In this document: positions 61,552 through 64,000 of the stretch, piece after piece | Layout: the number at the start of each line of letters is the position of its first letter | Position numbering within the stretch: position 1 is the stretch's first letter | Source of the DNA: an uncultured bacterium | GTDB taxonomy: Bacteria > Hydrogenedentota > Hydrogenedentia > Hydrogenedentales > CAILVY01 | DNA length: 64,000 nt | Assembly: GCA_937951485.1 (NCBI GenBank) | Contig: CALEDJ010000013.1 | Location: 4,386 to 68,385 of the forward strand | Direction: 5' to 3' | Made by a program: the position numbers and the translations under genes | The notes under the pieces: generated by a model | The model's input: only the letters and a program-made list of their open reading frames with translations | Databases searched by the model: none | What the model was told of the DNA's origin: nothing

Positions 61552-61874
61552 CATTCTTGGGTGAATTCCCCTCGTTCACAAGTTGCATCTGGCAACGGCG
61601 CTGCCCACGAAATTCCATGTCGTCTTACCAAAACCGCAGCGGTTCCCTGCTTACCCCTGTCAACACACTTCCAATCATACGGAAGGCGGTGTTGGTTGCA
61701 CCTCCTGCGGGATCGGATGGGATAATAGGATTCTTGCGCGTTGGGCCTGCGTCATAAAAGGGGGTTTTGGGGGGCATTTACCCCCTTGACAAATACGGGG
61801 GGGGGGTAAAATATGGTTAGTAGTGCGACATTGGCGTTAAAAAATCAGGCGCGCAAGCGCCGGGGGATAGCCCG
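61552..61874. other. Intergenic region with G-rich runs
   Basis: No gene. Between 61759 and 61806 there are runs G5, TTTT, G6, C5 and G10; the last lies between the two boxes of a promoter (next entry). A small hairpin (GGCGC/GCGCC, 61849-61861) lies before the ATG of the next gene. Confidence 0.6.
61786..61812 (+). promoter_or_regulatory. Promoter with G10 tract in the spacer
   Basis: TTGACA (61786-61791) is a perfect -35 box and TAAAAT (61807-61812) a good -10 box. The spacer is AATAC plus ten G, 15 bases, two short of the optimum 17. Gain of one or two G by slippage would give 16-17. The gene that follows starts at 61875. Confidence 0.6.
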
Positions 61875-63248
61875 ATGAAACACACAATACCCGCCCCCAT
61901 TCTCAGTATCCTGTGGGTCGTGGCATCCCTTCCGGGCGCCGCGCAGTTTCAGGCGCTCATCGTCGCCGAGGAAGCCGAAGCCTACCGTGAACTCACCAAC
62001 GGCGCGATCCACGAAGGCGCAGTCCGGCTTATCGAATTGATGCGCGAGACGCCGGGCGATGATCCTGCCGTGGCCGAGGAATTGGTGGGGCCATCGCAGT
62101 TGTTGTGCTTTGCCATCTACGCGTTGATGACGTGGCCCGACCGCTCCTGGCTTCTGCAGGAAGTCTTTCGGACGGATGAATACCCCTCCGATAAACTGCT
62201 GCTCGCCTTTGCGCAGGCCGGTTCCGGGGTGGATGGCCTGTGGATGTCCGCCTACAATGCGCTTATGCAACTGGCGAAAACGGAACATGAGGCCTTTCGC
62301 GTGGGAGCGATGTATATACTTGGGGACCCGTATTTCTATCGCGGCCTTCCCGAACAGAATCCTGCGGTGGCCGAATTGGTGCTGCGCTATCCGGACCGTG
62401 AATTCTCCCGCCACCTCATCGAGATGCCGGTGTATTACACCTTGGACAAGGCCGCCAAAGCGCAGGATACGGAAAAATATTTGCTGGAGGATGTGCTCTA
62501 TTGGGGCGGACTCAAGGAAGCCGTCTTGAATGCGTCGCCGGGGCTGGCAAAAGCGGCCGAAGCCCTCCCATCCATGAATTATCGCGATCTCAATGACAAC
62601 GTGGTCCGCCAGTGGGCGGAAGGCCTGACATCCGACCCAAATCCGCGCAGCCGATACACCATCATATCCATGTTGGCGAAAACGTGCAATACGCCGGAAC
62701 GCCGCGCGCAGGCGCGCGGAGGGCTCGCGGCGATAGCGGACCTGCCGCCCCGCACCCCCGACGTGCTGCGCGCGCGCATGCTCCTGGCGGAATTCGCCCG
62801 TGCGGACCACGATCCACAGGCCCTGCTGACGCTTGTGACGGGCTTGTTGAGACTGAATGTCTTACCCTGCACGCCCGAACGCAATATGTACGAGGCCGTC
62901 ATGCAGACTGCGCAACACGCAGGCCGCTATTTCACGCGCCACGGCTGGCACGCCATGGCCATACAAGTGCATGAAACCCTGGCGGGGAAGTTTCCGCGTT
63001 CGGTGCTGGCCGAAGTCGAATTTCAGCAGGCCAGAGCGATCCGCGTGGACGGATTGAAGGCCAGCCTGGACCTCATCGCCCAGGAAATGGCAGAACCGAT
63101 GAAAAACCAGGACATGGCAACGCTGCGTGCGCGATACCACGACATCATCGCCCATACGGCAAACGATGAACTTAAGGCCGCCCTGATGGAGCAACTGGCC
63201 GGAATCGAGAAAGAAGCCGGTAGCGACGATGCGGCGTTGGACCGCTGA
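61875..63248 (+). CDS. Exported helical-repeat protein of unknown function
   Basis: 457 residues, ATG 61875 (weak site, GGGGG 8 bases upstream). Signal peptide to about residue 22 (...LPGAAQ). The body is a long series of amphipathic helices without cysteines or catalytic motif, in the style of HEAT or TPR-like scaffolds (for example ALMQLAKTEHEAFRVGAMYIL; ARMLLAEFARADHDPQALL). No named family recognised. It is the gene controlled by the G10 promoter and lies beside another exported protein. Confidence 0.65.
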   Translation: MKHTIPAPILSILWVVASLPGAAQFQALIVAEEAEAYRELTNGAIHEGAVRLIELMRETPGDDPAVAEELVGPSQLLCFAIYALMTWPDRSWLLQEVFRTDEYPSDKLLLAFAQAGSGVDGLWMSAYNALMQLAKTEHEAFRVGAMYILGDPYFYRGLPEQNPAVAELVLRYPDREFSRHLIEMPVYYTLDKAAKAQDTEKYLLEDVLYWGGLKEAVLNASPGLAKAAEALPSMNYRDLNDNVVRQWAEGLTSDPNPRSRYTIISMLAKTCNTPERRAQARGGLAAIADLPPRTPDVLRARMLLAEFARADHDPQALLTLVTGLLRLNVLPCTPERNMYEAVMQTAQHAGRYFTRHGWHAMAIQVHETLAGKFPRSVLAEVEFQQARAIRVDGLKASLDLIAQEMAEPMKNQDMATLRARYHDIIAHTANDELKAALMEQLAGIEKEAGSDDAALDR

Positions 63249-63360
63249 GCGCACGAACCCAGTGGGGCGCAATCACCATGCCATCCGGGATTAGTCGCAA
63301 CACGGACCTTCAGATGGGATCGCGGGGGGGGCCCGCCCGCCAACTGACGGCGCAGATGGG

Positions 63361-64000
63361 GTGCCTGCACGGCGAGCAAAGAAGAAACAGCATAATTGGG
63401 CGCCTTGTATCGCCGCAGTCCTTGCGCTAGCGATCGTTGCGCCCTTTGCCCACGGGAATGTGCCACCCAGTTGGACGCCGTGCGATTGTGATGCAAATAC
63501 GTATACACTTACCGTAGGCACGGGCGGGCACGGGATGGCCGCCAAGTATCCGGACAAGGCCGCTTATACGATGGGCGAGAAGGTAGTGGTGTCGTTTTCA
63601 CCCAATGCGGACAGGGTGTTTCGGTGGTGGGCCTGTACCCCGGCGTCGCACTTAGCCACCGGTGAACAAGACCCGGCAGTGGCAGTTTACATTACTGGGA
63701 ATACAGTGCTTGCACCGCTGACATCGCCAAAGGTTTACACACTTTATGTGAATTGGAATCCATCCTTGGGTTCGGTGGCCGTCGTTCCCGGCGGCGAAAG
63801 CGGCTATGGTTGGTTCTCGGCCCCTGTCAATTACGGCGAAACAATCACGTTAACCGCGACTCCAAATAGCGGCCACTTCACACGCTGGCGGGGCAACAAC
63901 CCGAGTGACTTGAGCGGGTACCGGTATGCAAATAGTATAAACATAAAACCATCTTCCACGTGCAGGCTTGTTGCAGATTTCCTTCCCACGAGCCAGTATC
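63361..64000 (+). CDS. Exported protein with InlB-type bacterial repeats, 3' end outside window
   Basis: Open from GTG 63361 to the window end (about 213 residues); the frame is closed by a stop at 63292, so the GTG is the only plausible start, though its ribosome site is weak. After a signal peptide (AAVLALAIVAPFAHG) come at least two divergent InlB B-repeat-like domains: YTLTVGTGGHG...GEKVVVSFSPNADRVFRWW and YTLYVNWNPSLGS...GETITLTATPNSGHFTRWRG. Such repeats form beta-rich rods in secreted or surface proteins. The remainder is not in view. Confidence 0.75.
   Translation, partial: MPARRAKKKQHNWAPCIAAVLALAIVAPFAHGNVPPSWTPCDCDANTYTLTVGTGGHGMAAKYPDKAAYTMGEKVVVSFSPNADRVFRWWACTPASHLATGEQDPAVAVYITGNTVLAPLTSPKVYTLYVNWNPSLGSVAVVPGGESGYGWFSAPVNYGETITLTATPNSGHFTRWRGNNPSDLSGYRYANSINIKPSSTCRLVADFLPTSQY

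Follow-up and report, generated by a model that had tools for sequence, protein, structure and literature searches.

In an uncultured Hydrogenedentota bacterium, ten consecutive guanines separate the -35 and -10 elements of a putative promoter that precedes two genes for exported proteins. It is quite likely that this is a phase-variable promoter of the porA/TP0126 kind, in which slipped-strand mispairing would change the length of the spacer. An earlier note on this DNA had called such a promoter possible, and its reading gains support from the promoter position in an orthologue (L034), the recurrence of the layout above controls, the variable tracts at homologous genes, the association with export, and published precedents. 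The mechanism itself is already known; what seems to be new is that it occurs in Hydrogenedentota and is abundant among uncultured bacteria. The sequences themselves show the promoter elements, their conserved position, the recurrence of the layout, a constraint on spacing across bacteria and the link to export; we infer that the tract slips often here, which way expression would shift, and that the products act at the cell surface.

Promoter Anatomy and Proposed Switching Mechanism

The window, i.e., the whole stretch of 64,000 nucleotides that was analyzed (C13:4386-68385), is part of a 4.55-Mb genome of 77 contigs, and its end is the end of the contig. It contains the following features:

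61786..61791, + strand: -35 element TTGACA, perfect consensus (read directly; matched at the same place in the orthologue L034)
61792..61796, + strand: AATAC, invariant portion of the spacer (read directly)
61797..61806, + strand: G10 tract, proposed slippage site, which sets the spacer to 15 nt (read directly; layout recurs elsewhere)
61807..61812, + strand: -10 element TAAAAT (read directly; 62 nt to the ATG, equal to L034)
61875..63248, + strand: exported protein of 457 aa, without a Pfam family, with weak TPR/helical-repeat similarity (open reading frame, domain and profile comparison)
63361..63999, + strand: exported protein, second in the putative operon, with an InlB-type B-repeat, PF18998 (GTG start uncertain; leaves the contig)

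The elements, coordinates and counts given earlier (TTGACA, AATAC, G10, TAAAAT, spacer of 15) proved exact on direct reading, and the ATG of the 457-aa frame (61875) lies 62 nt past the -10 element. Recognizable -35 and -10 boxes thus enclose a homopolymer of at least eight bases, as in the porA/TP0126 class, and slippage by a few bases crosses the 17-nt optimum, the spacer being 15 nt at G10 and 17 nt at G12. With one, two or three extra G it measures 16, 17 or 18 nt. A generic promoter scan, which allows spacers of 16-18 nt, does not list the TTGACA/TAAAAT pair, because a spacer of 15 nt falls outside this range. G10 is the longest G run of the 64-kb window, in which two other runs reach eight or more (both G8). 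Since eight-G runs occur at chance frequency in this GC-rich window (5 matches, 4.85 expected), it was the position of the G10 tract, rather than its existence, that needed testing.

According to the proposed mechanism, a sigma-70-type promoter would drive a putative operon of two genes for exported proteins, with the poly-G tract setting the spacing between the -35 and -10 boxes. Slipped-strand mispairing at replication would add or remove G: at G10, the spacer of 15 nt, two bases below the 17-nt optimum, would leave the promoter weak or OFF; G11-G13 (16-18 nt) would turn it ON, with the best spacing of 17 nt at G12; and any further G would reduce its strength again. The outcome would be a mixed population of cells with differing amounts of the two exported proteins. 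By the logic of TP0126, where 17 nt is best, the window allele is two G short and would represent a low or OFF state. Homopolymers of about this length are known slippage sites. The idea that slippage is raised by absent mismatch repair was rejected, as MutS is present in the genome.

The Downstream Genes

A simple hydrophobicity rule finds a signal-peptide-like start in the products of both genes, which indicates export and not surface exposure. No Pfam family was found for the 457-aa product. Its family profile weakly matches chains of TPR and designed helical-repeat type, which makes an exported protein built of helical repeats likely. The second open reading frame carries a divergent InlB B-repeat domain (PF18998) and is incomplete, because the window ends with the contig. 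Both genes agree with the earlier description of an exported protein of unknown function behind the promoter and an exported repeat protein next to it.

Homologues of the 457-aa gene are present in 19 of 60 relatives, where they are often followed by another exported protein; at the homologous loci L034-L037, the downstream neighbor shares a Cys-containing opening (WEPCECxxxxYTLTV-like) with the second gene of the window. Neither the 457-aa gene nor the poly-G promoter pattern was found in the two genomes of the same family (G001, G002). A separate tract of eight G (63324-63331) follows an ATG at 63314 and precedes the GTG at 63361 that opens the second gene. This ATG is out of frame with the second gene and would come into frame with one extra G in the tract, which is possibly a second, translational slippage site of the same operon, or a product of chance.

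Conservation at Homologous Genes

The best orthologue, L034 (65% identity), is preceded by TTGACA-17-TAGTAT, and its -10 element ends 62 nt before the ATG, as in the window; the flanks are otherwise loosely alike. Because of this match at equal distance, the window promoter is probably real, and 17 nt is taken as the ordinary spacing. The L034 promoter has no G tract, so the tract appears dispensable for the gene.

Among the upstream regions of 17 homologues, window included, six contain G6 or longer and four contain G8 or longer, where the background predicts 0.039 and 0.006 for each 260 nt (binomial p of roughly 3e-5 and 3e-6; about 2e-4 and 1e-4 by hand without the window); these p values are rough, as relatedness is ignored and the background mixes coding and intergenic DNA. 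The tract lengths are G10 (window), G17, G9, G8, G6 and G6, and not every one of these G runs has a clear TTGACA ahead of it. The earlier note had proposed to compare the locus in related genomes, and the comparison shows a promoter position kept in L034 and G-tract lengths that differ between homologues.

Recurrence Within Hydrogenedentota

Across 68 Hydrogenedentota genomes, a pattern anchored on TTGACA, followed by 2-7 nt, at least eight G and TANAAT within reach, was found at seven sites, compared with none for the reversed pattern and one for a poly-C version, the G11 matches of G053 and G057 among the seven being identical DNA and not independent. The layout recurs beyond chance in the phylum. 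The match in G013 may be due to chance: the gene is 238 nt away and its product has no signal peptide. A short pattern of TTGACA and G6 had been discarded as too loose, with counts near the control level in many genomes, and was replaced by the anchored G8 and TANAAT version. The motif GGGGGGGTANAAT by itself is about two-fold enriched only (19 versus 9), with many matches inside long open frames, so that adjacency of the G tract to the -10 element is weak evidence on its own.

The genome of the window has a second full match (C41:34664-34695; L121) with G9AG5, TAAAAT and a spacer of 20, which is followed by a prepilin-like protein (MRKKGYSLVELLVSL...). A third, looser match (C50:30597) has G10 and TGAAAT and lies ahead of a membrane-anchored protein. 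Three similar promoters with G10, G11 and G15 behind TTGACAARAGTC are found in G053: two precede proteins with similar signal-peptide-like starts, and the third leaves the contig before any gene. G053 and G057 are listed as different species of one genus, and the identity around their poly-G promoter (L245 and L246) extends over about 2.7 kb, for which recent transfer and shared binning are alternative explanations.

Poly-G-Spacer Promoters in Other Bacteria

A scan of 84,980 species returned at least 119 stretches with the poly-G-spacer promoter layout, distributed over many phyla. Among the matches listed, 80 distinct sites have spacers concentrated between 15 and 20 nt, most often 16 nt, and the variance of spacer length is 3.9, compared with a mean of 9.6 and a minimum of 5.1 when flank and tract lengths were permuted (0 of 5000 permutations as low). 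A longer G tract therefore tends to go with a shorter flank and vice versa, which is what functional promoters would show. Also among the matches listed, exported-like products, called by a simple hydrophobicity rule and no trained predictor, lie behind 47 of 70 poly-G-spacer promoters and behind 9 of 52 ordinary promoter-like sites at the same loci (p = 5e-8).

Ten genomes, picked because they already carried matches, were searched whole and contain between 1 and 31 poly-G-spacer promoters each, with no hit for the reversed pattern. The counts include 31 and 23 for two gut Bacilli, 24 for Ancillula, 19 for a gut Clostridia genome and 11 for another. Near-identical copies, 19-31 per genome, were observed in the small gut or termite-symbiont genomes G068, G069, G071 and G077 (L291-L330). 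Within one genome, the promoter cores are nearly identical and the number of G varies (e.g., G8-G10 or G9-G14). Of the many-copy sets that were read, one stands ahead of pilin-like proteins and one ahead of a lipoprotein-like or membrane-anchored family; the others mostly precede exported proteins.

Alternative Explanations

A real promoter could also carry a G-rich spacer of effectively fixed length, be it structural, activator-corrected or neutral, that does not switch on useful time scales. The conserved promoter position and the presence of MutS are consistent with such a spacer, and the locus is known at one length, G10, from one genome. However, tract lengths differ widely both among homologous genes and among near-identical promoters of one genome, while a structural role would favor a single length, and homopolymers this long are known to slip; a fixed spacer is thus unlikely. 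Less probable still is that a chance or decaying tract lies next to sequences that merely resemble promoter boxes, while the gene uses another promoter. Runs of G8 are no rarity in the GC-rich window, and the spacer of 15 lies outside the usual range, leaving the standard scan silent, but the 65%-identical orthologue has the same -35 element and the same -10-to-ATG distance, and the seven sites in the phylum stand against zero in the reversed-pattern control.

The promoter also overlaps an inverted repeat: the letters at 61777-61785 (TTTACCCCC) and at 61802-61810 (GGGGGTAAA) are exact reverse complements of each other, so that a hairpin or operator, through a regulator or DNA structure, might act here instead. 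The perfect 9-bp arms flank or overlap the promoter boxes and are paired in the computed fold, but the sequence folds no more stably than its shuffled versions (z -0.76), and the C-rich arm is as a rule absent upstream of other poly-G promoters. The hairpin reading was rejected on the folding result, and we give this explanation as a whole hardly any weight.

Comparison With Known Systems

Promoter switching by spacer slippage, the preferred reading, has published precedents. In Neisseria meningitidis porA, fetA and opc, a homopolymer between -10 and -35 is thought to alter sigma-factor binding (PMC2791445), with poly-C as the tract in opc (PMC3960869). The likeness to porA drawn in the earlier note holds in this respect: in all three genes an unstable homopolymer lies between the boxes ahead of a surface-protein gene, as G10 lies ahead of an exported-protein gene in the window. 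However, switching has been shown experimentally in Neisseria and is proposed for the window; moreover, the window has a perfect-consensus -35 element, an unrelated gene family and an uncultured Hydrogenedentota host.

The closest match in layout and logic is TP0126 of Treponema pallidum, an OmpW homologue with poly-G between -35 and -10, for which transcription is reported to be best at 17 nt (PMC7864442). It belongs to another phylum and another gene, and both its tract lengths and the activity of its promoter have been measured, where the window offers a predicted switch. The T. pallidum genes tprE/G/J and tprL, which encode putative outer-membrane proteins, likewise have promoter poly-G tracts whose length alters activity; the passages cited place the tract within the promoter, with its position relative to -35 and -10 unstated, and report that 8 G performs better than 10, unlike the window model (PMC7864442).

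Wider Occurrence and Significance

No report of poly-G-spacer promoters in Hydrogenedentota was found in the literature searched, with most subscription journals outside its reach, and no description of genome-scale repertoires of this kind in gut or symbiont genomes was found there either. A 2025 review raises the question of whether pathogens alone truly have genomes rich in phase-variable loci, or whether this reflects database bias (PMC11868660). The window locus and its relatives point to database bias, as spacer-slippage promoters occur both in a phylum of environmental bacteria and among many uncultured bacteria from guts and symbioses. We lean towards the view that poly-G-spacer promoters serve as a contingency device of general use, well beyond the known pathogens, comprising the Hydrogenedentota exported-protein operon as well as genome-scale phase-variable surface repertoires in several small gut or termite-symbiont genomes, in which sets of 11-31 near-identical copies, distinguished mostly by their number of G, would drive pilin-like, lipoprotein-like and other exported families. 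Of the side results, the most interesting is how abundant these promoters are in uncultured bacteria that are not known as pathogens. Spacer-slippage promoters can be counted by a simple, well-controlled pattern, and if reads bear out the tract-length variation, random switching of exported proteins would be directly testable in bacteria that do not cause disease.

In the small gut and termite-symbiont genomes with many copies, a contig end is often found no more than about 50 nt from a poly-G promoter (L297, L299, L301, L322, L324, L327, L329), and assemblies thus tend to break at these sites, via shared repeats or mixed tract lengths among the reads.
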